Shown one piece after another: positions 9,456 through 60,023 of a DNA stretch of 64,000 nt. This stretch comes from Bacteriovorax sp. BAL6_X (lineage in GTDB: Bacteria > Bdellovibrionota > Bacteriovoracia > Bacteriovoracales > Bacteriovoracaceae). The stretch is taken from positions 1 to 64,000 of the forward strand of contig NZ_AUMC01000006.1 of the NCBI RefSeq assembly GCF_000443995.1. The letters are read 5' to 3'. How positions within the stretch are numbered: the first letter of the stretch is position 1; each line of letters starts with the position of its first letter. A model generated the notes under the pieces. The model saw only the letters and a list, made by a program, of their open reading frames with translations. It was not told the origin of the DNA and did not search any database. The translations under genes were made by a program, and so were the position numbers.

Positions 9456-10481
9456 TTGAAGTTAAATCTTACAAAAGTCGTATTATTTTCAGCGTTAATT
9501 TCAACAAATTCGATGGCCATTAATAAAGTTATTTATGGTATCGATAATAGAGTCGATGTACACGAATCAAATAAAGCATTTCTTGTTGATAGTGTTGCAG
9601 CAATGGTTCCAGGTTTTGCTTTCTTAAAAGATGAAGAAGGAAATGTTACTGATACGAAGTTTTTAAAGTTCCCTACTTTAAAATACCACAGAGGTTACCC
9701 TACATGTGGCGAGATGAGATTTAGAGATCAACCTACGATTGCAGGTTGTAGTGGCTTTCTAATTGGTGAAAATCTTATAATGACGGCCGGCCACTGTATG
9801 ATTTCGGGTGGGACAGAAGTTTCAGATCAAGTGACTTCAAAGTGTAGAGATAATAAATGGGTATTTAATTATAACTCGACATCAGTTAATAAGGACGGCC
9901 ATTTAGAGATTCAAAAAAGTGATGTCTTCGGTTGTAAACGCGTTGTCGCGGCATCAAATACAGGTACACTAGACTACGCCATTGTAGAACTTGAACGTAA
10001 AGCAACGGACAAGAAGCCCCTAACACTAAATTTAAATGCAAGTGCAACACGAAAAGGCACAGATATTTATGTAGCAGGCTATCCTACAGGACTCCCATTA
10101 AAAGTTGCAGCAGGGGCCAAAGTTACTTCAAGTTTAAGCTACAGCAATGAATTTAAAACGGATCTTGATACATTTGGAGGCAACTCAGGTTCCCCAGTGT
10201 TGAATAATAAAGATGAAGTTATTGGAATTTTAGTAGCTGGTGAGATCGATTATGTCTTTGACTTTAATAAAGGTTGCTATAAAGTAAACGTATGTAAGAA
10301 GCAAGGAGGTGTTTGTGAACGTCAATCAAACCCTCTAATGGGAGCATTAGGCGAGACGGTAACAAAAGCAGCCTCAGCTTACACAGACTACATATTAAAA
10401 AAATCAATGGGGCCTTATATCTTTGAAGAAGGTTCTGATATTGAAGAAGTGGACGAAATCATTGAAGAGTATGAAGAGTAA
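9456..10481 (+). CDS. Secreted trypsin-like serine protease
   Basis: The 341-residue protein starts at a TTG codon six bases after GAGAGGAA. A signal peptide (MKLNLTKVVLFSALISTNSMA) precedes the mature domain. The S1-family catalytic triad is visible: His in TAGHCM, Asp in TLDYAIVEL and Ser in FGGNSGSPVLN. Several Cys residues suggest disulfides (CGEMRF, AGCSGF, GCYKVNVCKKQGGVC). The C-terminus is acidic. The exonuclease gene overlaps its end by 11 bases. It probably acts outside the cytoplasm on prey or environmental protein, which is inference. Confidence 0.93.
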   Translation: MKLNLTKVVLFSALISTNSMAINKVIYGIDNRVDVHESNKAFLVDSVAAMVPGFAFLKDEEGNVTDTKFLKFPTLKYHRGYPTCGEMRFRDQPTIAGCSGFLIGENLIMTAGHCMISGGTEVSDQVTSKCRDNKWVFNYNSTSVNKDGHLEIQKSDVFGCKRVVAASNTGTLDYAIVELERKATDKKPLTLNLNASATRKGTDIYVAGYPTGLPLKVAAGAKVTSSLSYSNEFKTDLDTFGGNSGSPVLNNKDEVIGILVAGEIDYVFDFNKGCYKVNVCKKQGGVCERQSNPLMGALGETVTKAASAYTDYILKKSMGPYIFEEGSDIEEVDEIIEEYEE

Positions 10482-11064
10482 TATTAAAGCAAGAATCACT
10501 AAAGAAGAAATCAACTCTTACGAGATGATTGATTACACGGGCCAGATTTATCTTATTGATACAGAACAAAAGGCCCAAGATATTGCTAAGAAATTTCAAG
10601 AATTAAATCAAAAATACGACGTAACAGGCCTTGATACCGAATCAAGGCCTTCTTTTAAAAAAACGGATAACTTTCGAATAAGTCTTATACAAGTCTCATT
10701 TGAAGAGGAATGCTTCCTCTTTCGTTTAAATAAGATCCAATGCCCAGACTATCTAGTTAACTACTTAGAGGATCAAAATTTGATTAAAACGGGTGTTGCT
10801 GTGAAAGATGACTGTCGTGACCTAAAAAAACAGTATCATATCAATGCTAAAGGTGTTGTTGATGTTCAGGACCTTGCCAAGGCCCAAGGCTATATCACTC
10901 TCGGCCTACAGTCTCTTACAGGGATTCTTTTAGAGAAAAAGATCTCTAAGAAGGCAAAGCTCACAAATTGGGAAAATAATAAACTAACAGATGCTCAAAT
11001 TCGCTATGCTGCAACTGACGCCTGGATTTCATTAAAGCTCTATCAGGCATTAGAAAGCAAGTAA
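10471..11064 (+). CDS. RNase D-like 3'-5' exonuclease domain protein
   Basis: This protein of about 197 residues is essentially a DEDDy exonuclease domain: TGLDTESRP supplies the first Asp and Glu, GVAVKDDCRDL the second Asp, and RYAATDAWISLKLY the Tyr and last Asp. It lacks the HRDC domains of full RNase D, so it is a short single-domain form acting on RNA or DNA 3' ends. The start at 10471 (MKSNIKARIT) overlaps the protease stop by 11 bases. A more upstream ATG at 10423 would overlap further and is less likely. Confidence 0.88.
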   Translation: MKSNIKARITKEEINSYEMIDYTGQIYLIDTEQKAQDIAKKFQELNQKYDVTGLDTESRPSFKKTDNFRISLIQVSFEEECFLFRLNKIQCPDYLVNYLEDQNLIKTGVAVKDDCRDLKKQYHINAKGVVDVQDLAKAQGYITLGLQSLTGILLEKKISKKAKLTNWENNKLTDAQIRYAATDAWISLKLYQALESK

Positions 11065-11122: not shown

Positions 11123-11395
11123 ATGAAGGCCCTAAAAGTATTAATAATTTTAGTTTTCGCAACTAGCGTTTTTACACAAGAATCAGAAAATGAGAGTGGG
11201 CCATATCGTATGGATAGCTTTGGAACAACCAATCCATATGAAGAAGCTGCTATTCCAGATGAACGTAAAATTCGTCAACCTTCTTCTGAAGAAATCTACA
11301 AGTATAAGTATGAACTAGAACAAAGGCCAAAATGGCAGGACATCGAAGAAAACTGCGGCGACCGTTGCATTTATCCAGACTCTAGAGGGAAGTGA
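11123..11395 (+). CDS. Small secreted hypothetical protein
   Basis: This roughly 90-residue protein starts MKALKVLIILVFATSVFTQ, a signal peptide. The mature part is charged and Tyr/Glu-rich (EEIYKYKYELEQRPKWQDIEE) and ends with a CGDRC Cys pair that could form a disulfide. I recognise no family. An in-frame ATG at 11111 is an alternative start. It lies between the exonuclease and a lipoprotein gene on the same strand. Confidence 0.65.
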   Translation: MKALKVLIILVFATSVFTQESENESGPYRMDSFGTTNPYEEAAIPDERKIRQPSSEEIYKYKYELEQRPKWQDIEENCGDRCIYPDSRGK

Positions 11396-16820: not shown

Positions 16821-17762
16821 TCACTCACGAATCTGCGAAGCAGAGATTTCATTAAAAATATGTTCCTTCGCATACTCAAGCAGGGCCTCGTTTTCAAGAA
16901 CATGATTAGACCAAGCATGGAAGCCATGTGAGAATTCTTTGTAGGTTACTTCTACACCTTCTCTGAGTAGCTTCTCATAAAACATTAAACTATCATCATA
17001 GAGAACATCATATTTAGCAGCATAAATATAAGTCCTTGGTAAAGTTTCAAGCTCATCGCTGTAAAGTGGAAATATCGCAGGATCAAGCATATGAACTTCT
17101 CTATTAGATATTGCATAATCTAAAAGCTTTAAGAGCATTGATTTTGATAATCCACTCTCTTCCCCACTTTCGAACCTATTAGCAGAAGCTGTCTCAAAGT
17201 CACTTTGATAATGGCCAGTTAGAAGGTGAAGATCGGTGATTGTAAAACTTTTATCTCCTAAGCGGTTATTGGCCAAGCTAAGCAGAGTCGCAAGATTTGC
17301 ACCAGCGGAGACACCTGTAATCGTAAAAGTCTTCACACCTTTAAGATGAAGATCATTTAAGAGGGCCAGACACCAACTTGTTATCTCAGGAATACTAAGC
17401 TCAGGAGACAATGGGTAATCAGGGCAGATGATATAAGAAGACTCTTTATGCTCATTAAAGAGAGCTTGGCAGAATTGAGCACTTGTATATTCATGTCCAG
17501 TAACATAACCACCAGAATGAAGATGCATTATACAATGAGGCCGAGGCTCACCCCAAACCAAACATGTATGATTAAGCATTGTTTGATTTGTACAATGTAC
17601 TAGACTCTTATACTCTCCTTCAATGAGCACCATGGCCTTTCTAAGCTCATCAAGAGTGATTCGAGAAAAGCGCTTAATACCAACATCAAAGAATGACTGC
17701 ATTGATGAAAGACGTTTCTGATGAATGAATTCAGTTATTGATTTAGACAATGTGTAACCCAT
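16821..17762 (-). CDS. Alpha/beta hydrolase, HSL-type esterase
   Basis: The 313-residue protein has an oxyanion-hole segment MHLHSGGYVTGHE (the HGGG region, here HSGG) and a nucleophile elbow TGVSAGANLA (GxSxG with SAG). A probable acid Asp lies in AAKYDVLYDD and the His in FSHGFHAW. This fits the hormone-sensitive-lipase-like esterases acting on short acyl esters. No signal peptide is visible, so it is likely cytoplasmic. No strong ribosome binding site is visible before the ATG. Confidence 0.85.
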   Translation of the reverse strand: MGYTLSKSITEFIHQKRLSSMQSFFDVGIKRFSRITLDELRKAMVLIEGEYKSLVHCTNQTMLNHTCLVWGEPRPHCIMHLHSGGYVTGHEYTSAQFCQALFNEHKESSYIICPDYPLSPELSIPEITSWCLALLNDLHLKGVKTFTITGVSAGANLATLLSLANNRLGDKSFTITDLHLLTGHYQSDFETASANRFESGEESGLSKSMLLKLLDYAISNREVHMLDPAIFPLYSDELETLPRTYIYAAKYDVLYDDSLMFYEKLLREGVEVTYKEFSHGFHAWSNHVLENEALLEYAKEHIFNEISASQIRE

Positions 17763-17873
17763 TACATTTACACAGAATAGTATTTATTAAATAAAGAATA
17801 TAAATAAAATTCCGATAGTTAAAATTAGTAAAACTATTTTCGATATTTTAATCAAATAAAGGTAACAAGGCCA

Positions 17874-18137
17874 ATGAAAGCATTCTCATCAATTGTTCTG
17901 ACTTGTACATTTATGGCCTTAAATAGTTATGGTTATTTCATTGTAGATGACAATATTCTGTCACAACCACCTACTAACGATACAAAAGCAAAGTTATTCA
18001 AGATTGATGATGATGGAATGGGACCTGTCATGCCAAAAGAAATTGAACAAAGTAGGTTTCCAGCAAGCATTCCAACCGAAGATGAAAATGGTCAAATTCA
18101 AGATAGTGACAAGAATTATAAGAGACTTCACAAATAA
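17874..18137 (+). CDS. Small secreted protein with R-x-P-A-S motif (1)
   Basis: This protein of 87 residues begins MKAFSSIVLTCTFMALNSYG, a signal peptide, and has an acidic mature part. Residues 61-65 read RFPAS. The same R-x-P-A-S pattern occurs in the next two small secreted proteins and in the giant surface protein starting at 43456. Outside this motif I recognise nothing. It is the first of three consecutive small secreted-protein genes on the plus strand. Confidence 0.65.
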   Translation: MKAFSSIVLTCTFMALNSYGYFIVDDNILSQPPTNDTKAKLFKIDDDGMGPVMPKEIEQSRFPASIPTEDENGQIQDSDKNYKRLHK

Positions 18138-18243
18138 AAAACTATCAATCAATATCCACAATAATCACATAAAAAATTCAAATTACCGTTTCATAATCAG
18201 ACCAAAGAGCTAATAGGGCCATAACAGAAAAAAGAGGTAAGAT

Positions 18244-18465
18244 ATGAAACTAATTCCCATTTCATTAATTGTTCTCCTACTGACTACTCCTGCTTTTGCG
18301 CACAAAGATAAGCAGAAAAATATGTCTAAAAAATCAGAAGCTCAAGAAATGATGAAAAAAGATAAGAAAACAAAAATGAAGCAGCATAGAGAACGTGTAC
18401 CTGCTTCAAAAGAAGGGAAGAAAGGAGTTTCACTTACAGACACTCACTTTCTCATTTACGAATAA
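18244..18465 (+). CDS. Small secreted Lys-rich protein with R-x-P-A-S motif (2)
   Basis: The 73-residue protein has a signal peptide ending TPAFA, then a very basic, Met/Lys-rich segment (residues 21-50), then RVPAS at 51-55 and a short tail. A GAGGTAAG ribosome binding site precedes the ATG. The basic segment followed by the motif resembles a pro-region and processing site, but that reading is inference. No known family. Confidence 0.65.
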   Translation: MKLIPISLIVLLLTTPAFAHKDKQKNMSKKSEAQEMMKKDKKTKMKQHRERVPASKEGKKGVSLTDTHFLIYE

Positions 18466-18495
18466 GAAAACTTATAGAGAGGAAAGAGGTTTAAA

Positions 18496-18786
18496 ATGAA
18501 AGTCCTCACTTATATCTTAATTACATTGACTCTTCTTGCATTCAGCATGGAGGTTTACGGTGAGCGCTATACGGCCATTATGGATGAAAATGACCCCTCC
18601 GTTCAGAGACTAATTCATGGTGAAGAAGAACGAGCAAGTCAAGAGCGTAATCTGTCACGTGAAGAAAAAATTGATGAGAAGAAAATGGAGCGTACACCTG
18701 CTTCACAAGAACAAGATCACTATAGAGTGAATGAATACATGGAAAGACATGCTAGACCTCCTCTATTTGATCGTAAGTATAAATAA
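18496..18786 (+). CDS. Small secreted protein with R-x-P-A-S motif (3)
   Basis: The 96-residue protein has a signal peptide (MKVLTYILITLTLLAFSMEVYG) and a highly charged middle (residues 40-65). It then has RTPAS at 66-70, coded CGT ACA CCT GCT TCA. The preceding gene has the same CCT GCT TCA codons at this motif. A hairpin overlaps its stop codon and may end transcription of the three-gene group. Confidence 0.65.
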   Translation: MKVLTYILITLTLLAFSMEVYGERYTAIMDENDPSVQRLIHGEEERASQERNLSREEKIDEKKMERTPASQEQDHYRVNEYMERHARPPLFDRKYK

Positions 18787-18811
18787 GATATTGAATTTAC
18801 TTCAATATCTT
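18785..18811 (+). terminator. Hairpin after the small secreted genes
   Basis: An 11-bp perfect stem (AAGATATTGAA / TTCAATATCTT) with a 5-base loop begins at the stop codon of the preceding gene. It lacks a long T-run, so it could be a weak terminator or a transcript-end stabiliser. Confidence 0.45.
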
Positions 18812-18827
18812 ACTTTGCATATTTATA

Positions 18828-18858
18828 TTGTGCAAAACATAATTTTGCGCTATATAAT
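18828..18858 (+). promoter_or_regulatory. Promoter with embedded palindromic operator for the peroxidase operon
   Basis: The -35-like TTGTGC (18828) and the -10-like TATATAAT (18851-18858) flank a spacer filled by the inverted repeat GCAAAACATAATTTTGC (18832-18848). A repressor bound there would block RNA polymerase. OhrR/MarR-type repressors commonly bind AT-rich palindromes in this position, and such a gene lies second in this operon. Autoregulation is inference. Confidence 0.6.
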
Positions 18859-18887
18859 ATCATATAAATGAAAATAGGAGATTATAT

Positions 18888-19364
18888 ATGAGTGTCTATG
18901 ATTATAAAGCTGTTGATATAAGAGGAAATGAAAGATCCCTTACAGAATTCAAAGGAAAGAGTCTTCTTATTGTAAACACCGCAAGCAAGTGTGGATTTAC
19001 ACCACAATATGAAGGACTACAGAAGTTATACGATAAATACCAGGGCAAATTAGAGATCTTGGCATTCCCATGTAATCAATTTGGAAAGCAGGAGCCAGGA
19101 AGTTCAGAAGATATTCAATCATTTTGCGACTTAACCTTCAAAACTTCATTTCCACTTTTTGAAAAAATCGATGTTAATGGAGATAACACTCACCCACTTT
19201 ACCAATATCTTAAAGACGAATTACCAGGACTTCTAGGTAGTAAGAATATAAAATGGAACTTCACAAAATTTCTTGTTGATAGTGAGGGACATCCAATTAA
19301 AAGATATGCCCCTACTGATAAACCTGAAAGCTTAGAAAAAGATATTGAAAAGAGTTTTAAGTAA
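18888..19364 (+). CDS. Glutathione peroxidase-family thiol peroxidase
   Basis: This protein of 158 residues reduces hydroperoxides using a peroxidatic Cys (Cys35 in NTASKCGFTPQYEGL); there is no selenocysteine. The other family signatures LAFPCNQFGKQEPG and KWNFTKFLVD provide the Gln and Trp/Asn of the active site. Bacterial members often use thioredoxin rather than glutathione. It has an AGGAG site before ATG and overlaps the regulator gene by one base. Confidence 0.95.
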   Translation: MSVYDYKAVDIRGNERSLTEFKGKSLLIVNTASKCGFTPQYEGLQKLYDKYQGKLEILAFPCNQFGKQEPGSSEDIQSFCDLTFKTSFPLFEKIDVNGDNTHPLYQYLKDELPGLLGSKNIKWNFTKFLVDSEGHPIKRYAPTDKPESLEKDIEKSFK

Positions 19365-19804
19365 TGACTGAAGACATTCTATTAATCGAAAACCAAGTAT
19401 GTTTTAGTCTCTACAGGCTTAGTAAGTTAATTACGAGTCAGTATAGGCCATACCTTGACGAGATTAACCTCACCTACCCACAATACCTTGTCATGCTTGC
19501 CTTATGGGAGACAGACAAAGTGAATATGTCTCAACTTGGTGAAAAGCTCTCTCTTGATAATGGGACTCTAACTCCCCTAATAAAGCGTCTTATTGAAAAA
19601 GGTATGGTTGAGAAGAAACGTTGTCTTGAGGATGAAAGAATTGTCTATATCACAACCACAGCTAGTGGAAAGAAGTTAAAGAACAAAGCAAAAACAATCC
19701 CGCAAAAGCTTACTTGTTCAAATAATATTGATCTTAAAGAGATTCAAAAACTAAAAGCTGAAGCAGATAAAATTTATAACCAGTGGAGTACACATGAAAA
19801 ATGA
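19364..19804 (+). CDS. MarR-family regulator, OhrR-like
   Basis: The 146-residue protein has a winged-helix domain (NMSQLGEKLSLDNGTLTPLIKRL as recognition region, LEDERIVYITTT as wing). The N-terminus ENQVCFSLYRLSKL matches the OhrR pattern whose Cys senses organic hydroperoxides; here it is Cys13. Linkage to a peroxidase rather than to ohr is a variation. It probably represses its own operon via the palindrome at 18832-18848. Confidence 0.9.
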   Translation: MTEDILLIENQVCFSLYRLSKLITSQYRPYLDEINLTYPQYLVMLALWETDKVNMSQLGEKLSLDNGTLTPLIKRLIEKGMVEKKRCLEDERIVYITTTASGKKLKNKAKTIPQKLTCSNNIDLKEIQKLKAEADKIYNQWSTHEK

Positions 19805-20435
19805 AGAAATTATAAAAGCACTAAATTGGCGTTACGCTACAAAGGTATTTGATAAAACGAAAAAGATATCAGATGAGGACCTACACGTTTTAAATGAGTC
19901 ATTAAGACTTGCGGCCAGCTCATTTGGGCTACAGCCTTGGAAATTTATTTTAGTAAATGACCAGGCAACACGTGAAAAACTTAGAGAACACTCGTGGGGA
20001 CAATCTCAAGTGACAGACGCTTCTCACTACGTCGTTCTTGCTTACCTAACAGAGCTTAATGAAGAGTATGTTGAGAAATTTGTGCAATCAATTGCCGAGC
20101 AACGAAATGTTGAACGTGCAAGTCTACAAGGCTACTTTGACGTCATGAAAGGAGCACTAATTGATGGGCCTCGCTCAAAAACGATTCCAGAGTGGTCACA
20201 ACGTCAAACTTATATTGCCATGGGACAGCTTTTAATGACTGCGGCGATTCAAGGAATTGATACTTGTGCTATCGAAGGTATAGTTCCTGAAGAATACGAT
20301 AAAATTCTAGGCCTCGAAGGAACAAAGTATAAAACTCTTGGAACAGTAGCACTTGGTTACAGGTCAGATGAAGATAAGTACAAGGACCTTGAAAAAGTAC
20401 GCTTTAGTTTCGACGAAGTATTTAAAGTCATCTAA
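19794..20435 (+). CDS. NAD(P)H-dependent nitroreductase (NfsB-like)
   Basis: The 213-residue flavoprotein has the N-terminal NWRYATKVFD and LAASSFGLQPWKFILV FMN-binding signatures and the GIDTCAIEGI plus LGYRSDEDKYKDLEKVR C-terminal region of the oxygen-insensitive nitroreductase/dihydropteridine reductase family. It reduces nitro or quinone compounds with NAD(P)H. Its start overlaps the regulator gene by 11 bases, so the three genes form one stress operon, ended by the terminator at 20446. Confidence 0.93.
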   Translation: MKNEEIIKALNWRYATKVFDKTKKISDEDLHVLNESLRLAASSFGLQPWKFILVNDQATREKLREHSWGQSQVTDASHYVVLAYLTELNEEYVEKFVQSIAEQRNVERASLQGYFDVMKGALIDGPRSKTIPEWSQRQTYIAMGQLLMTAAIQGIDTCAIEGIVPEEYDKILGLEGTKYKTLGTVALGYRSDEDKYKDLEKVRFSFDEVFKVI

Positions 20436-43455: not shown

Positions 43456-46400
43456 TTGAAACTTAAGGCAATATCGGCCATCGTTATACTAACGCTGGCC
43501 TTACTATTGACGAATAAAGAATCAAAGGACGAAAGTCTAGTTATTTCTAGCAAACTAAAAAACACAAATACTATTGAAGAGAATAAAGAATATAATCTCA
43601 ATCGTGTACCTGCTTCTGCGTCAGTAAATTCGAAAAAGAAAATATTCGCTCCAAAGAGGCCTGTCGTTGTTAACAAGACTGCAGGTAACGATCACAACAC
43701 ACCGGCCTATATTAATAATAATTCTAGCGACTCGACTCACTCGAATACGGAAGTTAATACTAGAGAGAATCCATTAAATCTATCAAGAGATGCTAGTCCA
43801 GCATATACAAACTCTAATAATTTAAGTTCTTCGAATTATGATCCAACTGCGCCGTCTAGAGATTTAAGCAACAACAAAGATATCGATCAAGAGTCATCAA
43901 CTTCATCTAGTTCAAGCTTTTATTACCAAACAACAGTACAGGCACAAGAAGAGTCGAGTTCATCGTCAAGCTCAAGTTCAAACTCCTCGTCTTCTTCTAA
44001 ATCAGATCCATATATCCCACCGACACCAAGGCTACAGGGACTAGTACCACCGCTAAATGGCGTTATTACACATACAAACTTCTTCTCTCGTCAATTTAGT
44101 GCTTATGCAGCGACTACTTGCCCTGATCCAAAGGTAGCAGTTTTTGATACGGTGACAATGACGATACTAGAGGACAATCCGATTGATTTAGAGACAATTG
44201 CGACAACGACACAATTTGAGTTTAATATTAGTGACCTTGATTTAGACTTAACAGCACCAGCGCGCTACAAGATCAAGCTTCTAGGTTGTGACATTGAACT
44301 CGAAAAAATTGTCACAAGTTTCTATAGGAACCAAAATATTACAGCAGCTTCAACAATACTTGCGCAACTTCCTTCTACTAATGTTGATTACTCGACTGAT
44401 GCAAACTTTACAAAAAAATTAGAAGAAGCAGAAGAGGCGCTATCAAAAACTCTTGATGAGAACCTTACTAATCTTGAAGATGCCTATACGCAAATTGAAA
44501 GTGATAGCGAAATACAAAATACTTTTAACGAGCTAACAGATGGTGAAAACTTAGAAGTTCTAAAAAGCTCTAAACCTAAGATTAAAACAATTCTAACACC
44601 AACCTTTATGGATGAAGGGGTTTCGGCTTCGTATTCTGCACTTGCAGATCACTGGGACTCGACTTATCAAATTGCCTATGAATGGTTTGTTGATGGTATA
44701 TCAGCTGGAACGGGGAATGCATGGAGCTACACTCCTCCAACAAATACTCTTCCAAAGGCAACAATCACACTTAAAGTTGGAAAGAAACAAAGTGGTAATG
44801 ATCGTGTCGATACAAATTTTCCATTTCACGAAAAAAGTTATGAAATTGATATTAATCAAGTCAATGACGCCCCTACTTTATCAACACCACAAACAATTAG
44901 TGCAACAGAAGACTCAAATCTAGACTTTAGCTTAACAGAAGGTGTTGACCCAGACTCATTCTCATTAACATATTCAATTGAAACGCAACCGACAAATGGA
45001 ACCCTGAGCTGTAGTACTAGTACAACAACTTGTACATATACACCTAATCTTAATTTTACAGGTAGTGACAGCTTTACATATAAGGCTAATGATTCTGAGC
45101 TGGATTCAAATATTGCTATCGTTAATATTAATGTTGCTAACGTGAATGATAGGCCAACAATTGCAGCAGATGAAACTTTTACTGCTGTCGAAGACAATGC
45201 CTTAAACTTTACTATTTCTGACTCGACAGACATTGATAATACAAGCACTGAACTTAGCTATAAGCTAACTACACCTCCTACGAATGGGGTTCTTTCTAAT
45301 TGCTTTACAACGGGAAGCTATCTGTCAGACTTAAACTGTACGTATACACCAAATGCAAATCATAACGGTTCAGACACATTTACTTATATCGTAAATGATG
45401 GCCAATACGACTCAATTGGCCAAGCAACAGTTACAATAAATACAACTGCTGTAAATGATGCTCCGACACTTTCTTCAACGCAGACACTTACAACAGCAGA
45501 AGACACACTTCTTGCCTTCACACTAAATACAGGAAGTGATATTGAGGCCGATCCCCTATCTTATATAATCGTATCAACGACTTCTAATGGTGTTTTAACT
45601 TGTACAGGAGGTACTTCTAGAGATTGTCAGTACATGCCTTCAGCAAACTTCAATGGTGTTGATTCATTTACATATAAAGTTAATGATGGAAGCCTCGATT
45701 CAAATATCGCAACTGTATCTATAACGATTTCTTCTGAAAACGATGCTCCACTAATTGGCAGTGATCAAAGTGTATCAACAAATGAGGATACTCTTGTAAG
45801 CTTCACGCTAAATAGTGCGACAGATATTGATGTACCGGCACAAACAATTCAATACAAGCTCATTACTGGCCCTACTAATGGTACCCTTGCAAACTGTATT
45901 ACTACTGGAAGCTACACAACAGACATTACTTGTGACTACACTCCTAGTTCTAATTTTAATGGTACTGATACTTTTACATATAGAGCTAATGACACTCAAG
46001 CAGACTCTCCAACAGAAGCAACAGTTACAATCACTATTGCTGCTGTAAATGATGCTCCAGCACTTGCGGCAACACAAAGTGTTTTAACAAGCGAAGATAA
46101 TCCAATCAGTTTTAATTTAAACGCGGCAACAGATATCGAAAACGATGCTCTGACATACACTATCGTCTCAACAACTACGAGTGGTACACTTGTATGTGAC
46201 GAAGGTAGTTCAAGAGCATGTACTTATACTCCGAATGTAAATTTTAATGGTCAAGACACATTCACTTATAAAGCAAATGACCCGGGCCTTGACTCAAATA
46301 CTGCAACAGTAACAATAGACGTGACAGCAGTTAACGATGCACCAGTAATGGCCTCAAATCAGAGCTTCACAACTGATGATAACACTCCACTAAGTATTAC

Positions 46401-49400
46401 TCTAACAAATGCAACAGATATTGATGGGGATAGCTTAACTTATAAAATTACATCATTGCCGACAAACGGAACATTAACAAATTGTATTACGGCAGGAAGT
46501 TACGGAACAGATCTAACTTGTACATACACTTCTAACGTAAACTACAATGGTGTTGATTCATTTTCTTTCATCGCCAATGACTCAGCAACCGATGCCCTTA
46601 GTTCAGCGACTATTACAATTACAGTAGCAGACAAAACTCCTTCTGCACCACCTAGTATTGCACTTAGTTCTGCTCTTTATACAAATTCGACAAACACTAA
46701 TCTTACAGTTAGTTCATGTAGTGATATAAGTTTTGTCCTAATTAATGAAGGAACTCAACCAACTCCTGCAGATAGCTCTTGGCAGTCTTGTACAACTTCA
46801 GCATCGGCCATTACATATATCCTGGCCAATACAAATCAAGGACTCCATACTCTTAAGGCATGGTCAAAAGATGTAAATGGCAACGTATCATTAACATCTA
46901 CAGATATCTCTGTTTACTATGATACAGTTGCACCAGCGATCTCTATTGCTACAGTTGCCAATCAAGCAGGATCAAATGGTATTACTCTTTCTTGGGATAT
47001 TACGGAAGATTATATTTCAGCTTCTCAAACTCATACAATCGACTATTGGAATGGTAGTTCTTGGGTAAATATCACATCCGCTCATAATGCAAGTGTTGGC
47101 CCATTATCAAATACAACATTCACACAATCTTGGACTGTACCAAACCTTGATATTGAAGACGCAAAGATAAGGATTTCTCTTAGCGACCTGGCTGGAAATA
47201 CTAATACAGTAGAATCAAATACATTCTGGATAGATTCGACAGCGCCGCAAATCGCCCATGATACTTTTACATCATATGGACAAAGCTCAACTAAGACATT
47301 TTCATGGACACTAACAGAAAAACATATTGATGCTGGCGCTAATAACTTTGCACTTAGATTCTATGATGGAAGCACTTGGCAAAACCTAACAGCAGTAGCG
47401 GCGCTAACAAGTGAAAATGTTTCAAAGAGCTACTCAACTGACATTAGCTTAGGTAGTGAGGTCAATAATGCAATCTTTGAAGTGAGTTTCACCGATGCAG
47501 CAGGACATAACACAACAATTCAAAAAACATTTGTCATTGATGGAACAGCACCAACAATTTCATCAATCTCATTAAATGGTGGTGCAACGACAACTGGGAA
47601 TAATAACGTCCAGGTTGACCTTGCTGCAAACGACTCTGCTTCTGATATCACATATATCTGTTTAAAGTATGATGATACAACTCAGCCAATGAGTATTAGC
47701 GATGAATGCTTCACGACCCTACCAGAAGCGAAAAGAACACAAAACTTAACAATTTCAAGTGCAGATAATATTTATGTAAGAGTTGGTTTTGTCACTAATA
47801 GCTATAGTGTTTATGCGTGGGCGGCCGATGCCGCTGGAAATATTTCCACTAATACTCAAGTAGCTGGTGTTGATAAAGAGTCGATTAATTATATACCAGG
47901 AACACCTCCTGAAATTTTTAATATTAGTGCAACAAATACAAATACGCCAAGCTCACCGGCCACACTTGCACAACTTCAGGCTCCTCAAAATAGTGATATC
48001 TATGTCAAATGGAAGGCCATTGATAATGAGGGATTAGCAACGAATCCAATTAGTATTTACTATTCTTATATGGATGGGACAGAAGAGAAATATGAACTTC
48101 TAATGGATAGTGTTGCCAATATTCAAGGAAGCGGTTGTACTATTTCGGCCCAAGAAACAGGCTGTATCAAGCTAACAGCACTTTCACCAACTAACGCTGT
48201 TTATAAGATTAGAGTTGTAGCCCTTGATAGTGACGGTAGTGAAACTTTCATGACTTCGGCCCCTCTTAATGAATCTAACTTTAGAATTATTGCAGGAAGT
48301 ACTGAAAAAGGAATTGGCGGAAGTGGACGTTCAGTTATTTTCAAAGATGGAAATTCAACATATGAAATTGACCTATTTTCTACGGTGGTCACTGATCGTG
48401 GTGATATTTTCTACCGTGACCTAGATGCTGGTCTCTTATGGGTTGATCCCACAACTGGGATAATCACAGAATTAATTCCGACTACGGGGACACCTAGTGG
48501 AGATGGCGGATCAATTGACAATGCCACAATTGGTTTTGCAAGTGCCATTACGCTTGATTATAACAATGGACTTTTAATTGTCGATAAAGGAAGTATTAGG
48601 CGTATTGATATGAATACCACTCCTTGGCAAATTTCGACACTAATCGGTGGAGGTGCAAGCTCAAATCCAGGATCTAGTTTTGCACCGAATGCAATTGATA
48701 TTGCGAGCTTTCACCGTTTTCTAGGTACACTTGTTCCCCTACCAAACGGCGACCTCTACTTTAGAAGTACTTCAAGTAATACTGATCGAAATTGGTTTCA
48801 TTTCGATGCAAGTGAGAATATCGTTAATCGAGTACAAATTGATGGTGTCGGTATCTACAATGAGGAAACTTATAGTTGGTCAGGTAGAAGTGTTACAAAT
48901 ATGGCCATTGCATTTAATTCAGTAAACTCAGCACTGGAGCATATGCATGTATCAGTTCACAAGCCAGTACCAGGAAATACTCATTACCGAGTGGCAAGGC
49001 TCGATTACGCTTCAGGAACGCCAACAACAACTTATAATGCAATTGCCCCTTATGATATCTATACAGGTTATCGTTCAATCTATAAAACTGGTCTTGATGG
49101 AAAAATCTACTTTGATTATAAACACGGCCGAAATCTCATGCTCTATGATCACGTAACAAATACGTACACAAGAGTTCTAGGTACAGACTCAACTTCAAGT
49201 ACGCCATGTGCAGATGGGACTGCGGCAACGTCATGCCCTATTGATCTTCAAGGTTATTTTATTAACCAACAAGGTAAAATCTATTTTAATGACCACGGCC
49301 TTATTAGAACATTAGATGACAGTGGTAATGTCATAACTCTAGCTGGTCAATTCTCATCTTCAGGAGATGGAGAAAGTGCACTCTCGGCCCGTATCTCTGC

Positions 49401-50283
49401 CTCATGGCAAATTGATTGGGGAAAAGATAACGGCTTAGACAACACAATTGTCGTTGGGGATTATGTTTCCGGAACATATCGAGAATTCACAATTGGTGGA
49501 ACCATCGAAAATATCGTAGGTGGTTACTCAGCTCGCTCATACAGTTTTTCTGTTGATCGAACAACTGGAGATATTTTTGATGATGTTGGTTCAGGTGTAA
49601 ATCGCTACAGCAGAGCAACATTAACGAATACACGCGTTATTGGAAGTGGTGCAACTTGGTATTTTGATGCAGGATCAGATGGCCTAGTCGGAACAGATAT
49701 TAAATTTGATTGGTATAACGAGCAAATTCTTGGAGTGGCAAATGGAGAACTTATGCTTCACAAGTCACGATATAATGGCACAACAACATCTGATGCATTC
49801 ATTAAACTTTATGACATGAATGATAGCTACCGTCAGTCACACTTTGCAGGAATGCCAAGTACAGAACGTGGAAGCTTCTATGGTGCAGGAACACCTCTAG
49901 CAACTTCTCGTGTACCAACATATGGTGGTATGGTTAATGCACATTACGACTCAACACTAGGATGGATGTTCAAGCAAACAGGTTCTGCCCGTGTTATGGT
50001 AAAAGGTGGCGATGGAAATATTGTTGACTACACTATACTACCTAGAACAACTAACGGATTCACACACGTACGCCACAATTCAAAGGAATACTACTATTAC
50101 TGCTCTAGTAATAAATTATGGCAGTATAATTTTACAGACGATATTGAAACTGAATTAAGTTGGGATGCACAGGTTAGCTGTTATTCTTCACAGAGAAAGA
50201 TTCTCTACAACCCAACTAATCACTCTGTTCACTTCTTAGTAGTACAGAATGGACTATTTGCGGTTGCAGAGTATTTTCTTTAA
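43456..50283 (+). CDS. Giant modular surface protein (2275 residues)
   Basis: It starts at TTG 43456, six bases after AGGAA. A hydrophobic N-terminus (residues 5-19) serves as signal or anchor. RVPAS follows at 50-54, then an Asn/Ser-rich low-complexity region with a Ser tract (about 150-183). Six tandem cadherin-like modules (469-1061) begin with VNDAP-type junctions, then come three Ig-like modules each opened by a D-T/S/G-[TV]-A-P motif (about 1150-1480). A large C-terminal beta-propeller-like region (about 1610-2275) contains YEIDLFSTVVTDRGDIFYRD-type strands. The modules point to an elongated adhesin. No secretion partner gene is next to it. Confidence 0.88.
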   Translation: MKLKAISAIVILTLALLLTNKESKDESLVISSKLKNTNTIEENKEYNLNRVPASASVNSKKKIFAPKRPVVVNKTAGNDHNTPAYINNNSSDSTHSNTEVNTRENPLNLSRDASPAYTNSNNLSSSNYDPTAPSRDLSNNKDIDQESSTSSSSSFYYQTTVQAQEESSSSSSSSSNSSSSSKSDPYIPPTPRLQGLVPPLNGVITHTNFFSRQFSAYAATTCPDPKVAVFDTVTMTILEDNPIDLETIATTTQFEFNISDLDLDLTAPARYKIKLLGCDIELEKIVTSFYRNQNITAASTILAQLPSTNVDYSTDANFTKKLEEAEEALSKTLDENLTNLEDAYTQIESDSEIQNTFNELTDGENLEVLKSSKPKIKTILTPTFMDEGVSASYSALADHWDSTYQIAYEWFVDGISAGTGNAWSYTPPTNTLPKATITLKVGKKQSGNDRVDTNFPFHEKSYEIDINQVNDAPTLSTPQTISATEDSNLDFSLTEGVDPDSFSLTYSIETQPTNGTLSCSTSTTTCTYTPNLNFTGSDSFTYKANDSELDSNIAIVNINVANVNDRPTIAADETFTAVEDNALNFTISDSTDIDNTSTELSYKLTTPPTNGVLSNCFTTGSYLSDLNCTYTPNANHNGSDTFTYIVNDGQYDSIGQATVTINTTAVNDAPTLSSTQTLTTAEDTLLAFTLNTGSDIEADPLSYIIVSTTSNGVLTCTGGTSRDCQYMPSANFNGVDSFTYKVNDGSLDSNIATVSITISSENDAPLIGSDQSVSTNEDTLVSFTLNSATDIDVPAQTIQYKLITGPTNGTLANCITTGSYTTDITCDYTPSSNFNGTDTFTYRANDTQADSPTEATVTITIAAVNDAPALAATQSVLTSEDNPISFNLNAATDIENDALTYTIVSTTTSGTLVCDEGSSRACTYTPNVNFNGQDTFTYKANDPGLDSNTATVTIDVTAVNDAPVMASNQSFTTDDNTPLSITLTNATDIDGDSLTYKITSLPTNGTLTNCITAGSYGTDLTCTYTSNVNYNGVDSFSFIANDSATDALSSATITITVADKTPSAPPSIALSSALYTNSTNTNLTVSSCSDISFVLINEGTQPTPADSSWQSCTTSASAITYILANTNQGLHTLKAWSKDVNGNVSLTSTDISVYYDTVAPAISIATVANQAGSNGITLSWDITEDYISASQTHTIDYWNGSSWVNITSAHNASVGPLSNTTFTQSWTVPNLDIEDAKIRISLSDLAGNTNTVESNTFWIDSTAPQIAHDTFTSYGQSSTKTFSWTLTEKHIDAGANNFALRFYDGSTWQNLTAVAALTSENVSKSYSTDISLGSEVNNAIFEVSFTDAAGHNTTIQKTFVIDGTAPTISSISLNGGATTTGNNNVQVDLAANDSASDITYICLKYDDTTQPMSISDECFTTLPEAKRTQNLTISSADNIYVRVGFVTNSYSVYAWAADAAGNISTNTQVAGVDKESINYIPGTPPEIFNISATNTNTPSSPATLAQLQAPQNSDIYVKWKAIDNEGLATNPISIYYSYMDGTEEKYELLMDSVANIQGSGCTISAQETGCIKLTALSPTNAVYKIRVVALDSDGSETFMTSAPLNESNFRIIAGSTEKGIGGSGRSVIFKDGNSTYEIDLFSTVVTDRGDIFYRDLDAGLLWVDPTTGIITELIPTTGTPSGDGGSIDNATIGFASAITLDYNNGLLIVDKGSIRRIDMNTTPWQISTLIGGGASSNPGSSFAPNAIDIASFHRFLGTLVPLPNGDLYFRSTSSNTDRNWFHFDASENIVNRVQIDGVGIYNEETYSWSGRSVTNMAIAFNSVNSALEHMHVSVHKPVPGNTHYRVARLDYASGTPTTTYNAIAPYDIYTGYRSIYKTGLDGKIYFDYKHGRNLMLYDHVTNTYTRVLGTDSTSSTPCADGTAATSCPIDLQGYFINQQGKIYFNDHGLIRTLDDSGNVITLAGQFSSSGDGESALSARISASWQIDWGKDNGLDNTIVVGDYVSGTYREFTIGGTIENIVGGYSARSYSFSVDRTTGDIFDDVGSGVNRYSRATLTNTRVIGSGATWYFDAGSDGLVGTDIKFDWYNEQILGVANGELMLHKSRYNGTTTSDAFIKLYDMNDSYRQSHFAGMPSTERGSFYGAGTPLATSRVPTYGGMVNAHYDSTLGWMFKQTGSARVMVKGGDGNIVDYTILPRTTNGFTHVRHNSKEYYYYCSSNKLWQYNFTDDIETELSWDAQVSCYSSQRKILYNPTNHSVHFLVVQNGLFAVAEYFL
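44860..46638 (+). repeat. Six cadherin-like modules in alternating A/B order
   Basis: Modules start at codons 469, 563, 666, 761, 864 and 959. Lengths of the first five are 94, 103, 95, 103 and 95 residues. Short modules (A) carry a tight Cys pair in a TLSC/TLVC...C[TQ]Y loop. Long modules (B) carry NC...TGSY...C in a longer loop. The strict A-B-A-B-A-B order indicates duplication of a two-module unit of about 198 residues. Confidence 0.85.
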
Positions 50284-54702: not shown

Positions 54703-54746
54703 ACGTACCTCTTTGTTAGGTCTACCAATCCTCGACTATTGGTATT

Positions 54747-57700
54747 CTATTTCACTTTTGGAGACAGTTGCAGTAACCTCTCCATCGCTTTTGGATCATC
54801 TTTTAATGTAAAGCTCAGCTCAACTCGTTGTGACTGTGAACAACTATACTCGCCACATTTCATGTCTTCGTTTGCAAGTGGTACTGCAAAACTCGCCGGC
54901 TTTCTTTCTTCAACAATAAACCCTTTAGGCTCAATTAGTTCTGCTGCAATCGATTCATTTTGTCTTTCGATTACCGTCTCAAGAGGAATCGGTCTTGAGA
55001 AACCATACCCAATCGACTTCGTCACATTTCTCATATAGAACTTATATGGGTAGTTCATACCATCGCTATAAATATAATTCGAAATAGCTAGGGCACGACG
55101 TGATGATAAGTTTAAGTTATAGTTATACGAGTAAGCTTCTGCCATCATTGGGTCAAGGGCCTTACCAGCAAATAGTGGTGAGGCGTGACCTTCAACATTG
55201 AAGCTATCAAGTTGCTCTCTTACTGTATCATCAGCAAATAAAACTTCAGAATATAGTGGAATAAGCGATTTAAGCTTCTTCTTAGCATGCCTACTTAGTC
55301 TTGAAGAACCTGTTTCAAAAAGTAAGTTCTTATCCATTAGAAGTGTTACGTTACCTGTTTTTGGATCAACCGCTGCATCGATATTATTATTTCTAAATTT
55401 GTCAGCAAGATTTCTCGCAATATTTGCACGTAAGTTCTTCTTCTGATCTTCAACTTTTTTTGCAATCTTCTTAACTTGCTTCATGAAGTCTTTCTTATCA
55501 TTAACTTCAGCTAGACATGAATTAAGCTTCTTATTAGCACCATCAAGTCCGTTACCAAGCTCTGTGACTTTCTGATTCAAGATACTTGATCCAGACTCAC
55601 AAGCATTTAGGTCTTCACCAAGAGAGGCGATTTTACGGCCAAGATTACCATTTTCATCATTCTTATTAGCAAGAGCATTTTGTAGGTCACTTACCTCTTT
55701 ACCAAGTCCTGCAACCTTCCCTTTTAAATCATTATTTTCTTTACCAAGACCAGCTAGCTCACCCTTAGCTTTTCCAAGAGCGTCTTTAAGACCACCTATT
55801 TCTTTGCCCATACCGGCAAGTTTACCTTTTGCTTGCCCTAGAGCTTCTTTAAGTCCACCGTTCTCTTTACCAAGTCCAGCAAGTTTACCTTGTGCCTTAC
55901 CAAGAGCTTCTTTAAGTCCACCATTCTCTTTACCAAGACCAGCTAGCTCACCCTTAGCTTTTCCAAGAGCATCCTTAAGTCCACCGATTTCTTTACCCAT
56001 ACCGGCAAGTTTACCTTGTGCCTTACCAAGAGCTTCTTTAAGTCCACCGTTCTCTTTACCAAGTCCAGCAAGTTTACCTTGTGCCTTACCAAGAGCTTCT
56101 TTTAGGCCACCGTTCTCTTTACCAAGACCAGCTAGCTCACCCTTAGCTTTTCCAAGAGCGTCTTTAAGACCACCTATTTCTTTGCCCATACCGGCAAGTT
56201 TACCTTTTGCTTGCCCTAGAGCTTCTTTAAGTCCACCGTTCTCTTTACCAAGACCAGCTAGCTCACCCTTAGCTTTTCCAAGAGCGTCTTTAAGACCACC
56301 GATCTCTTTACCCATTCCGGCCATCTTACCTTTGGCCTGTCCAAGAGCTTCTTTAAGTCCACCTATTTCTTTACCCATACCGGCAAGCTTACCTTTTGCT
56401 TGCCCTAGAGCTTCTTTAAGTCCACCGTTCTCTTTACCAAGACCAGCTAGCTCACCCTTAGCTTTTCCAAGAGCGTCTTTAAGACCACCGATCTCTTTGC
56501 CCATTCCGGCCATCTTGCCTTTGGCCTGTCCAAGTGCTTCTTTTAGGCCACCGATCTCTTTACCCATACCGGCCATCTTACCTTTGGCCTGACCAAGGGC
56601 CTTCTTAAGTCCACCGATTTCTTCACCCATACCTTTCATCTTGCCTTTTGCCTGTCCTAGAGCTTTTTTAAGCCCTCCATTTTCTTCTGACATACCAGCA
56701 AGCTTCCCTTGGGCCTCTCCAAGAGCTTTCTTAAGCCCTCCGTTTTCTTCAGACATTCCCTTAAGTTTTCCCTTGGCCTCGCCAAGCGCCTTCTTAAGCC
56801 CACCATTCTCTTCAGACATACCAGCAAGTTTTCCTTGGGCCTGACCTAGAGCTTTCTTAAGTCCACCATTCTCTTCTGACATCCCCTTAAGCTTTCCTTC
56901 AGCTTGCCCTAGGGCATCTTTAAGTCCACCGTTTTGTGCCATTAGAGACTTCTTATCACCTTCAAGTTTACCTACCATCGCTTTTAAACGATCAACTTCC
57001 CCAGAAAGACCCTTATTCTTAGCGTCCCCTTGTGCAAGTTTAGATTGAAGGTTTTTAATATCACCTTTTAGGCCTTGGTTGTTTTGTTGTGAGCGAGCAA
57101 GGTTCGACTTAAGACCTTTAACATCCTCATTAAGCCCTGCAATCTTCCCATCACGAGCGCTAACATCAGCATTTAGTTTTTTGATTTGAGAGTCTTTTTG
57201 TGCTGTAAGAGAATCCATCGCCTGAGCGTGCTTACCTTTTAGATCCTTAATTTGATTATCATAGGCCATTTTCTGATCGGCCTTATTCTTTTCATATTGC
57301 TTTGTTAAATCTGTAAGCTCTCGCTTGTGATCAGAGTTTAACTTTGCAATTTGCGACTGAGCATCTTTTTTCACACCAGCAAGCTGCTTTTCCTTCGTAT
57401 CAAGTTCAGATTGATACTTCTTATTAAGATCAGCAATCTTTGATTCATATCCTGCCTTTTGCTTGGCCTCAGATTTTTTATGCATTTTTTCTAGATCAGT
57501 AATCTTCTTAGCGTGATCAGAGTTTAGTTTTGCAATAGTTTCTTGAGACTTTTTAATCGTTCCTGCAAGTTGAGCTTCTTTTGTATCGAGTTCAGACTGG
57601 TGCTTCTTATTAAGATTTGCAATTTTCGACTCATAACCCATTTTTGTATTCTGTTGCTGTTTTTGATGAGACTTTGTTAAGTCATCAACCTTCTTAGCAT

Positions 57701-60023
57701 GGTCAGAATTTAACTTTGCAATAGTCTCTTGAGACTTTTTAATCGTTCCTGCAAGTTGAGCTTCTTTTGTATCAAGTTCAGACTGGTGCTTCTTATTAAG
57801 ATTAGCGATTTGAGTTTCATAACCCATCTTCGTATCTTTTTCTTTCTTCTCATATGACTTTGTTAGATCCGAAACTTTCTTTGCATGATCTGCATTCATC
57901 TTAGCAATTGTTTCTTGAGACTGCTTTTTCTGACCAGCTAGTTGTTGGTCCTTTGAAGTAAGTTCAGACTGAAACTTCTTATTAAGATTGGCGATTTGAG
58001 TCTCATAACCCATTTTTGTGTCTTGCTGTTTCTTCTCATAAGACTTCGTGATGGTATCAACTTTTTTAGCGTGATCAGAATTAAGTTTTGCAATCGTATC
58101 CTTAGACTGTTTAATTTGTCCGTCTAATTGTTGTTGCTTGCTCGTTAACTCTGACTGATGCTTCTTATTTAGGTTTGCAATTTGAGTTTCATAACCCATT
58201 TGCGTATCTTGTTGCTTCTTCTCATATGTCTTTGTTAAGTCATTAACTTTCTTAGCATGATCAGAGTTTAATTTAGCGATGGTCTCTTGAGACTGCTTCT
58301 TTTGACCTGCTAGTTGCTTTTCCTTAACATCAAGTTCACCTTGATACTTCTTATTTAAGTCAGCGATCTGGGTTTCATAACCCATCTTTGTATTTTGTTG
58401 CTGCTTTTCATAAGTCTTTGTTAAATCAGTTACTTTCTTTTGATGATCAGAGTTAAGACGAGCAATTGTCTCTTGCGAGTTTTTCTTTTGACCCGCAAGT
58501 TGCTTATCTTTAGTATCAAGCTCTGCCTGAAACTTCTTATTCATATCAGCAACTTGTTTCTCGTAACCAGCTTTTTGTTGCTGCTTTTGTTTCTCAAAAG
58601 TCTTTGTAATATCCGCGACTTTATTTTGATGTTCAGAATTAAGGGTTTTAATCTCATGCTCTTTCGTTGAGATAATATTGGCGTATTTCTTATTAAGGTT
58701 ATCAACTTTTAATGTATGGTCTTGGTTTAGCTTTTGAACCTGCTGCTCTTGTGCTTTCTTTTGCTGAACAATCTCTTGCTCTAGCTTTTCTTGAGCAATG
58801 ATACGACCTTTGATTTCACGATTGGCCTTAGCAATAATTTCTTCATTCTTGCGCTTAACTTGTTGAAGTTCTTGAATTTTCTTTGTGTCTTCTGTTACCT
58901 TTTGAAGAGTATTTGCAAGTTTTGAGCGTACTTTAACAATTTCATTATTAACGAGTTTGTTTTCAGCTTGTTGCTCCTGTACTTTTTTCTGCTCAACTTC
59001 TAACTTTGTTTCAAGCTTAGTTTTAACCTGCGTGATTTGTTTGATATCTTTATTTTGCTTAGTAATTTCCTGTTCTAACTCTTTAAGCTTCTTTTCTTGT
59101 TGAGTTTTTACTTGCTCAACACTTGAAAGTGTTTCTTGGATTTTCTTTTTTTGTTCTTCAACTTGCTTCTTTTTCTTATCTAGCTCACCAACTTTAGTAT
59201 ATAAGATATTATTCTTATCCTGCGCCTTTGCAAGCATTGAATCACGTTCTTTAATCTGTTCTTCGAGATCCACTAGAGACTTCTCTTTGAATTCAAGAAC
59301 AGTTTTAATTCTCTTTTGTTCTTTTTCTTGCTCTTTAATTTTTTCTTTGGTTTGCTCAAGATTTTTTGAAAGTTTTTCATTCTCTTGAGATTTTTGCTTC
59401 ATCTCTTTTACGATTTGCTGGATTTTCTTTTGAAGTTCTTGTTCTTCTTTCTTTTGTCTCTCCATCATACGTGATAGTTTATCAAGCTGGGCCTCTTTAG
59501 AACGAAGGTCATCCTGATTCTTACGAATCTCCTCAAGACGCTTCTTCATTTCTTTTGCTTTTTCGTTAATTTCTTTCTTTAATTCTGTGTTTTCACGTGT
59601 GATCTTTTTAGACTTATATTTTTCTTTATCAAGCTGCTTTCCAACTTTTTCAACAATTGATTCTTTCTTTGTTTGATTTTCAACCATCTCTTCCATGATC
59701 TTCTTATTCTTTTCAAGTTTCTCAACAAACTTAGAAAGCTCGACCATTTTCTGATTAATCACGTTCTTATAATCAGTAACCTCAGTGATGGATTGCTCAA
59801 TTTCATTCTTGGCCTTAATTTCTTTGATTTTTTGTTCTTTGGATACCATTCCTTCAAGTTGTTGTTCGTGCTTCTTCTTTTCTTGCGCTTGCTGAAGAGA
59901 CTTAACACCAACCTTAATCATGGCAAAAACGAACATTACTAGGAATACAACTGCAACGGTTGTAAACATATCTGAATATGAACTCCAGATTGATCCGTCG
60001 TCTTTTCTTTCTTCTCTTTTCAT
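54747..60023 (-). CDS. Giant MotB-like stator protein with periplasmic coiled coil and OmpA-like domain
   Basis: The 1758-residue protein starts with a short cytoplasmic tail and one helix (SYSDMFTTVAVVFLVMFVFAM, about 15-36). Asp18 aligns with the ion-binding Asp32 of E. coli MotB (motif AxADFMTAMMAFFLVM). Residues 40 to about 1540 are almost all charged helix and predicted coiled coil. They contain eight 62-residue repeats (about 455-945) and nineteen 21-residue Gly-containing repeats (1033-1431). The C-terminus (about 1550-1700) is OmpA-like: LLFETGSSRLS, FNVEGHASP and NLNLSSRRAL, though the Asp of GHTD is replaced. Standard MotB is about 300 residues. AGGAT precedes the ATG. Confidence 0.88.
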   Translation of the reverse strand: MKREERKDDGSIWSSYSDMFTTVAVVFLVMFVFAMIKVGVKSLQQAQEKKKHEQQLEGMVSKEQKIKEIKAKNEIEQSITEVTDYKNVINQKMVELSKFVEKLEKNKKIMEEMVENQTKKESIVEKVGKQLDKEKYKSKKITRENTELKKEINEKAKEMKKRLEEIRKNQDDLRSKEAQLDKLSRMMERQKKEEQELQKKIQQIVKEMKQKSQENEKLSKNLEQTKEKIKEQEKEQKRIKTVLEFKEKSLVDLEEQIKERDSMLAKAQDKNNILYTKVGELDKKKKQVEEQKKKIQETLSSVEQVKTQQEKKLKELEQEITKQNKDIKQITQVKTKLETKLEVEQKKVQEQQAENKLVNNEIVKVRSKLANTLQKVTEDTKKIQELQQVKRKNEEIIAKANREIKGRIIAQEKLEQEIVQQKKAQEQQVQKLNQDHTLKVDNLNKKYANIISTKEHEIKTLNSEHQNKVADITKTFEKQKQQQKAGYEKQVADMNKKFQAELDTKDKQLAGQKKNSQETIARLNSDHQKKVTDLTKTYEKQQQNTKMGYETQIADLNKKYQGELDVKEKQLAGQKKQSQETIAKLNSDHAKKVNDLTKTYEKKQQDTQMGYETQIANLNKKHQSELTSKQQQLDGQIKQSKDTIAKLNSDHAKKVDTITKSYEKKQQDTKMGYETQIANLNKKFQSELTSKDQQLAGQKKQSQETIAKMNADHAKKVSDLTKSYEKKEKDTKMGYETQIANLNKKHQSELDTKEAQLAGTIKKSQETIAKLNSDHAKKVDDLTKSHQKQQQNTKMGYESKIANLNKKHQSELDTKEAQLAGTIKKSQETIAKLNSDHAKKITDLEKMHKKSEAKQKAGYESKIADLNKKYQSELDTKEKQLAGVKKDAQSQIAKLNSDHKRELTDLTKQYEKNKADQKMAYDNQIKDLKGKHAQAMDSLTAQKDSQIKKLNADVSARDGKIAGLNEDVKGLKSNLARSQQNNQGLKGDIKNLQSKLAQGDAKNKGLSGEVDRLKAMVGKLEGDKKSLMAQNGGLKDALGQAEGKLKGMSEENGGLKKALGQAQGKLAGMSEENGGLKKALGEAKGKLKGMSEENGGLKKALGEAQGKLAGMSEENGGLKKALGQAKGKMKGMGEEIGGLKKALGQAKGKMAGMGKEIGGLKEALGQAKGKMAGMGKEIGGLKDALGKAKGELAGLGKENGGLKEALGQAKGKLAGMGKEIGGLKEALGQAKGKMAGMGKEIGGLKDALGKAKGELAGLGKENGGLKEALGQAKGKLAGMGKEIGGLKDALGKAKGELAGLGKENGGLKEALGKAQGKLAGLGKENGGLKEALGKAQGKLAGMGKEIGGLKDALGKAKGELAGLGKENGGLKEALGKAQGKLAGLGKENGGLKEALGQAKGKLAGMGKEIGGLKDALGKAKGELAGLGKENNDLKGKVAGLGKEVSDLQNALANKNDENGNLGRKIASLGEDLNACESGSSILNQKVTELGNGLDGANKKLNSCLAEVNDKKDFMKQVKKIAKKVEDQKKNLRANIARNLADKFRNNNIDAAVDPKTGNVTLLMDKNLLFETGSSRLSRHAKKKLKSLIPLYSEVLFADDTVREQLDSFNVEGHASPLFAGKALDPMMAEAYSYNYNLNLSSRRALAISNYIYSDGMNYPYKFYMRNVTKSIGYGFSRPIPLETVIERQNESIAAELIEPKGFIVEERKPASFAVPLANEDMKCGEYSCSQSQRVELSFTLKDDPKAMERLLQLSPKVK
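55731..56927 (-). repeat. Nineteen tandem 63-bp units coding a 21-residue repeat
   Basis: Nineteen contiguous 21-residue units span codons 1033-1431 (exactly 1197 bases). Typical half units read GLKEALGQAKG and KLAGMGKEIG. Hydrophobic positions 2, 6, 9, 13, 16 and 20 follow 3-4 spacing, so each unit is three heptads, with Gly at several positions. Early units have SEEN, later ones GKEI or GKEN. Blocks of two and three units recur nearly identically, pointing to recent tandem duplication. Confidence 0.95.
57200..58690 (-). repeat. Eight tandem 186-bp units coding a 62-residue repeat
   Basis: The marker GYE(T/S)(Q/K)IA(N/D)LNKK recurs eight times at 186-base steps, near 58563, 58377, 58191, 58005, 57819, 57633, 57447 and 57261 (the last as AYDNQIKDLKGK). 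Between markers QETIAKLNSDHAKKV and LTKSYEK recur. A period of 62 is not a multiple of 7, so the coiled coil must contain stutters or hendecads in register in every copy. Outer borders are approximate. Confidence 0.9.

Follow-up and report, generated by a model that had tools for sequence, protein, structure and literature searches.

R-x-P-A-S, a short motif enriched in exported proteins of Bacteriovorax sp. BAL6_X and its relatives, is a candidate extracytoplasmic docking peptide

Introduction

General O-glycosylation systems act on short motifs that lie in flexible segments of numerous exported proteins unrelated to one another. In Bacteroides the motif is D-S/T-A/I/L/V/M/T. The PglL enzymes of Neisseria and Burkholderia modify Ser only, favor Ala at the −1 position, and work on disordered stretches rich in Ala and Pro across many exported proteins (PMC8423747); they are reported to lack a rigid sequon (PMC8423747, PMC3643930). 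The PEXEL motif of Plasmodium (RxLxE/Q/D) is an Arg-led pentapeptide located downstream of the export signals of many proteins, at a set distance past the signal peptide. The TonB box and other periplasmic docking peptides are short, unstructured segments of exported proteins that are read by an envelope protein. Finally, the C-terminal sorting signals LPXTG, PEP-CTERM, GlyGly-CTERM, and MYXO-CTERM are short motifs common to otherwise unrelated surface proteins, and each is followed by a transmembrane helix and a basic tail.

The pentapeptide R-x-P-A-S, described here from Bacteriovorax sp. BAL6_X and its relatives, has points of likeness to all of these. It is a short Pro/Ala/Ser motif in the flexible linkers or tails of many unrelated exported proteins, as general O-glycosylation sites are, but it has a strict Arg four residues ahead of the Ser, its Ser is replaceable in orthologues, and it is known here from sequence. 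Like PEXEL it is led by Arg and recurs downstream of export signals, but it lacks a Leu or acidic position and is not restricted to the N-terminus: sites are also found in mid-protein, in multiple copies, and at the extreme C-terminus. It would share with the TonB box a putative reader in the envelope; its sequence differs, however, and it occurs in lipoproteins, secreted proteins, and membrane-anchored proteins alike. Otherwise unrelated surface proteins carry it, as they do the C-terminal sorting signals, but it is not confined to the C-terminus, and the motif proteins listed lack a transmembrane helix and basic residues behind it. No account of R-x-P-A-S was found in the open-access literature searched, to which it is new.

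Results

The whole stretch of DNA analyzed, 64 kb in length, is referred to here as the window. Five in-gene R-x-P-A-S sites were located in it, where composition predicts about 0.1; they are listed below with one variant site.

11123..11395, plus strand: 90-aa exported protein; variant RQPSS at residues 51-55 (about 11273-11287)
17874..18137, plus strand: 87-aa exported orphan protein; RFPAS at residues 61-65 (18054-18068)
18244..18465, plus strand: 73-aa exported, highly charged orphan protein; RVPAS at residues 51-55 (18394-18408)
18496..18786, plus strand: 96-aa exported, highly charged orphan protein; RTPAS at residues 66-70 (18691-18705)
43456..50283, plus strand: 2275-aa giant Big_9/cadherin-repeat protein with an N-terminal hydrophobic export signal or anchor; RVPAS at 43603-43617
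54747..60023, minus strand: 1758-aa MotB-plug-like, coiled-coil protein with one N-terminal transmembrane helix; RKPAS at residue 1707 (54905-54891)

The sequence-only reading from which this work began had pointed to four of these sites (RFPAS at 18054, RVPAS at 18394, RTPAS at 18691, and RVPAS at 43603) as lying in exported proteins. All four are in frame at those positions, and each of the open reading frames begins with a hydrophobic export signal, with the motif some 30-45 residues downstream. The same reading correctly judged the motif to be rare by residue frequencies in this amount of protein, and the three small proteins to be otherwise unrelated; they are alike only at the motif (ERxPASxE, in the case of the 73-aa and 96-aa proteins). 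It had also remarked on a shared codon pattern, CCT-GCT-TC, which is present at three of the four sites but carries no weight, since the pattern is not enriched at the DNA level (135 matches in the genome vs 158 for a reversed control), and on a charged stretch ahead of the motif, which is not informative on its own. A DNA-level origin of the motif, through codons or a repeat, was rejected, the pattern being no commoner than its reverse.

The fifth site, RKPAS on the minus strand at 54905, was missed in that first reading. It lies near the end of a protein that is predicted to be periplasmic beyond its single N-terminal transmembrane helix. A MotA/ExbB-like protein adjoins this MotB-plug-like, coiled-coil protein (window 53731-60023, minus strand), and together they form a motor-like pair whose periplasmic portion is very long; another pair of this sort is found near FliL-like and BamE-like genes in another locus (L225, 1591-4641). 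The giant 2275-aa open reading frame starts with TTG at 43456, and its N-terminal hydrophobic stretch, which is without a clear AxA site, may be an uncleaved anchor. The three small genes are flanked on one side by an alpha/beta hydrolase gene and on the other by a gene set encoding a glutathione peroxidase, a MarR regulator, and a nitroreductase (window 16821-20435). No credible homologues of their products were found in 97 related genomes, and their Pfam matches (conotoxin, HAUS6) were below cut-off and were disregarded.

Every DNA match able to code for R-x-P-A-S was located in the 3.23 Mb genome by pattern search, with surrounding stretches fetched (the genome was not scanned as one reassembled sequence) and genes called by a hexamer model. 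This yielded 34 sites in genes, of which 27 (in 26 proteins) were exported or anchored according to a simple heuristic, namely the presence of a signal peptide, lipobox, or N-terminal anchor, with the start codon moved for a few genes. Composition predicts 1.8 exported sites and about 3.4-3.5 others across the whole genome. With the window left out, 22 exported sites were observed against 1.77 expected (Poisson P ~5e-17); when automatic export calls alone were accepted, 19 remained, still far above expectation. The other seven sites were cytosolic or of no assigned class: three in L067, L068, and L084, and four in L066, L079, L087, and L096, where starts are uncertain or beyond the stretch. 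Non-exported sites thus number between 3 and 7, which is near the chance expectation of about 3.4-3.5. A genome-wide comparison of this kind had been named in the sequence-only reading as the test that could overturn its claim that exported proteins share a functional motif of their own; the count, with strong enrichment in exported proteins and near-chance occurrence elsewhere, supports the claim.

Several very long proteins carry the motif or its R-x-P-S-S variant. L079 and L066 encode paralogous proteins (>1200 and >1600 aa, starts uncertain), both with RVPASNVMSTPLTGY in the same context. Giant exported proteins of 3151 and 3358 aa are encoded in L142 (5003-14458, minus strand) and L380 (8340-18416, plus strand); both have a hydrophobic stretch at the N-terminus and an RxPSS site (at residue 66 in the former and 63 in the latter), and resemble the giant protein of the window.

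Among the variants compared, only R-x-P-A-S and, weakly, R-x-P-S-S were enriched. K.PAS, H.PAS, Q.PAS, R.PAT, R.PAA, R.PAN, R.PAG, R.PVS, and permutations of the motif all occurred at chance levels. R.IAS, R.VAS, and R.LAS were rejected as general forms, since they are not enriched globally; R.IAS and R.VAS were nonetheless found as alternatives at orthologous sites, where R-x-[I/V]-A-S appears to be a weaker form of the motif. In an unsupervised ranking, all 4-of-5 gapped motifs in exported proteins were scored with no prior choice, counting homologous clusters once (2324 proteins from this genome, G007, G063, and 67 related loci, reduced to 1200 homology clusters). R-x-P-A-S ranked second, with 12 clusters against 1.34 expected (P = 2e-8); the top-ranked motif was HExGH, that of zinc metalloproteases, which in effect served as a positive control. 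When residues were shuffled in 20-residue blocks, R-x-P-A-S occurred a mean of 1.5 times, with a maximum of 6 over 300 trials.

Enrichment was also observed in other genomes. Two genomes of the same genus, sampled blind, contained 3 exported sites against 0.27 expected (G001) and 4 against 0.20 (G003), and a genome of another family (G063) contained 3 sites, in two proteins, against 0.33 expected. A 400 kb sample of a genome of the same family (G007) contained no R-x-P-A-S, with 0.26 exported sites expected; heavy use of the motif is therefore not uniform in the family.

Orthologues of five carriers were gathered from tens of genera; the related loci compared belong to Bacteriovorax, Halobacteriovorax, and other Bacteriovoracaceae. 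In the orthologues of FliL-like, BamE/OsmE-like, and FecR-like proteins the motif is retained in otherwise divergent linkers. It follows immediately past the transmembrane helix in 46 of 62 orthologues of the FliL-like protein, although in the window's own genus this site has degenerated (RKIAS, RKPDS, REPAE). The Pfam match of this carrier to FliL is just under cut-off (PF03748, E = 1e-4); its periplasmic domain shows the FliL fold, with a Foldseek match to H. pylori FliL (7sgn, E 2e-6, TM 0.79 on the target). The BamE/OsmE-like lipoprotein, whose fold resemblance is weak, keeps the motif at its main site in 42 of 66 orthologues, and RTP[AS]S is almost invariant in most genera. Where the main site has been lost, RSIAS often arises elsewhere in the same protein, a pattern of loss and regain that represents the turnover typical of short linear motifs. 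The genes for these two proteins, both with RxPAS, form a divergent conserved pair (for example L215, 8671-9741, minus strand, and 9941-10594, plus strand; most of L209-L275) seen in nearly all fetched Bacteriovoracaceae loci.

In nearly all of 30 orthologues of the FecR-like protein, a linker that does not otherwise align contains 2-5 copies of R-x-[P/I/V]-[A/S]-S, two of the sites being kept in 26 and 24 of the 30. Of 12 orthologues of an anchored 426-aa protein (protein D), 9 retain the motif in the juxtamembrane linker. The C-terminus of a TPR lipoprotein reads RLPASR both here and in G001, and RLPASVSK in G003. The RAPAS of a LysM lipoprotein, not conserved among its homologues, was gained in this species. 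In both of the AlphaFold models made, the motif lies in or beside low-confidence (low pLDDT) linkers.

At 29 orthologous sites exactly one key position had been lost: Ser at 16, Ala/Ser at 7, Pro/Ile/Val at 4, and Arg at 2, counts in which some sequences are related and not all events independent. The replacing residues were varied (A, N, Q, E, G), and the cases came from four families. Sites with Ser lost but R, P, and A kept include RAPAA, RTPAA, REPAA, RSPAQ, RMPAQ, RLPAQ, and RVPAN; replacement of Ser by Thr with R, P, and A intact was not seen among the orthologous sites.

Discussion

Any motif picked by eye in a single window invites the suspicion that it is an artefact of chance, composition, or homology. 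The enrichment outside the window, the counting of homologous clusters once, the local shuffles, the permuted motifs, and the replicate genomes all speak against this, and we find such an origin scarcely credible. The reading we favor, at a probability of about 0.48, is that R-x-P-[A/S]-S is an extracytoplasmic short linear recognition motif of Bacteriovoracaceae and their relatives, most likely a putative docking peptide. In keeping with docking motifs, it recurs beyond chance in non-homologous proteins of one compartment, and it lies in flexible segments where it is conserved while the flanks diverge. As we envisage it, the Arg would make the key contact with a putative shared receptor in the periplasm or envelope, and the small P-A-S part would fit a pocket of that receptor. 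The receptor may tether or gather the motif proteins, with avidity where several copies are present. Both the docking role and a single receptor we infer from the distribution and conservation of the motif.

The Ser is the position at which a docking peptide and an enzyme substrate part ways. Proteome-wide, Ser is strongly preferred (R.PAA, R.PAN, and R.PAG are at chance), which counts against docking and is what a Ser-modifying enzyme would require. The motif may then be a sequon for covalent modification, most plausibly general periplasmic O-glycosylation, in which an oligosaccharyltransferase would read R-x-P-A and modify the S. Such a role would fit the known general O-glycosylation pattern of PglL enzymes, the failure of Thr to replace Ser in orthologues, the lack of enrichment of R.PAT, and the presence of sites in C-terminal tails and multi-copy linkers, where acceptors may also sit. 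A Wzy_C/WaaL-type protein is encoded in the genome; it was the one match of a Wzy_C search there, it is indistinguishable from an O-antigen ligase and equally well explained as one, and such proteins are present nearly everywhere and are not diagnostic. The looseness of the PglL requirement argues the other way, as does the observation that among the single-loss sites Ser is the key position most often replaced while R-x-P-A stays. An acceptor Ser should be the last residue to go; because Ser is instead the most and Arg the least replaceable, docking anchored by Arg is favored over Ser modification, which we regard as unlikely though deserving of serious attention.

More improbable still is cleavage by an envelope protease that would cut, for instance, between A and S and free proteins from an N-terminal signal or anchor. 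Pro-Ala preceding the scissile bond suits elastase-like proteases, and in several carriers, giant repeat proteins among them, the N-terminal anchor looks uncleaved and the motif follows 10-50 residues later. The residues found at the x position, however, include F, K, R, D, and E, ruling out a signal peptidase I site, and in lipoproteins the motif lies well downstream, so that cleavage would cost them their lipid anchor. It is also repeated inside one linker, and conserved 1-3 residues from the C-terminus of the TPR lipoprotein and near the end of others; cutting at the C-terminal RLPAS, conserved in three species, would remove just a few residues. The original suggestion of a site for processing or sorting, fixed a short way behind the signal peptide, is disfavored as well, since the motif also occurs in mid-protein, up to five times in a single linker, just outside transmembrane anchors, and at the extreme C-terminus. 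That it is commonly found near the signal peptide reflects the membrane-proximal linker of many carriers and is not a rule.

The presence of R-x-P-A-S in many unrelated envelope proteins points to an extracytoplasmic component that they would have in common, be it a binding partner or a modifying enzyme. A broader proposal, which we advance tentatively and hold to be possible rather than probable, is that a dedicated recognition system unlike any described is at work, whose single envelope receptor or enzyme would read R-x-P-A-S and organize the envelope of the predator; it would cover dozens of lipoproteins, secreted proteins, and membrane proteins, including the FliL-like component, in Bdellovibrio-like bacteria. 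R-x-P-A-S provides a defined peptide with which to fish out such a partner, and for orphan small secreted proteins it is a first property open to testing. As a proteome-wide tag, it would tell which proteins meet a common partner outside the cytoplasm, in poorly understood bacteria known for their predation on other bacteria.
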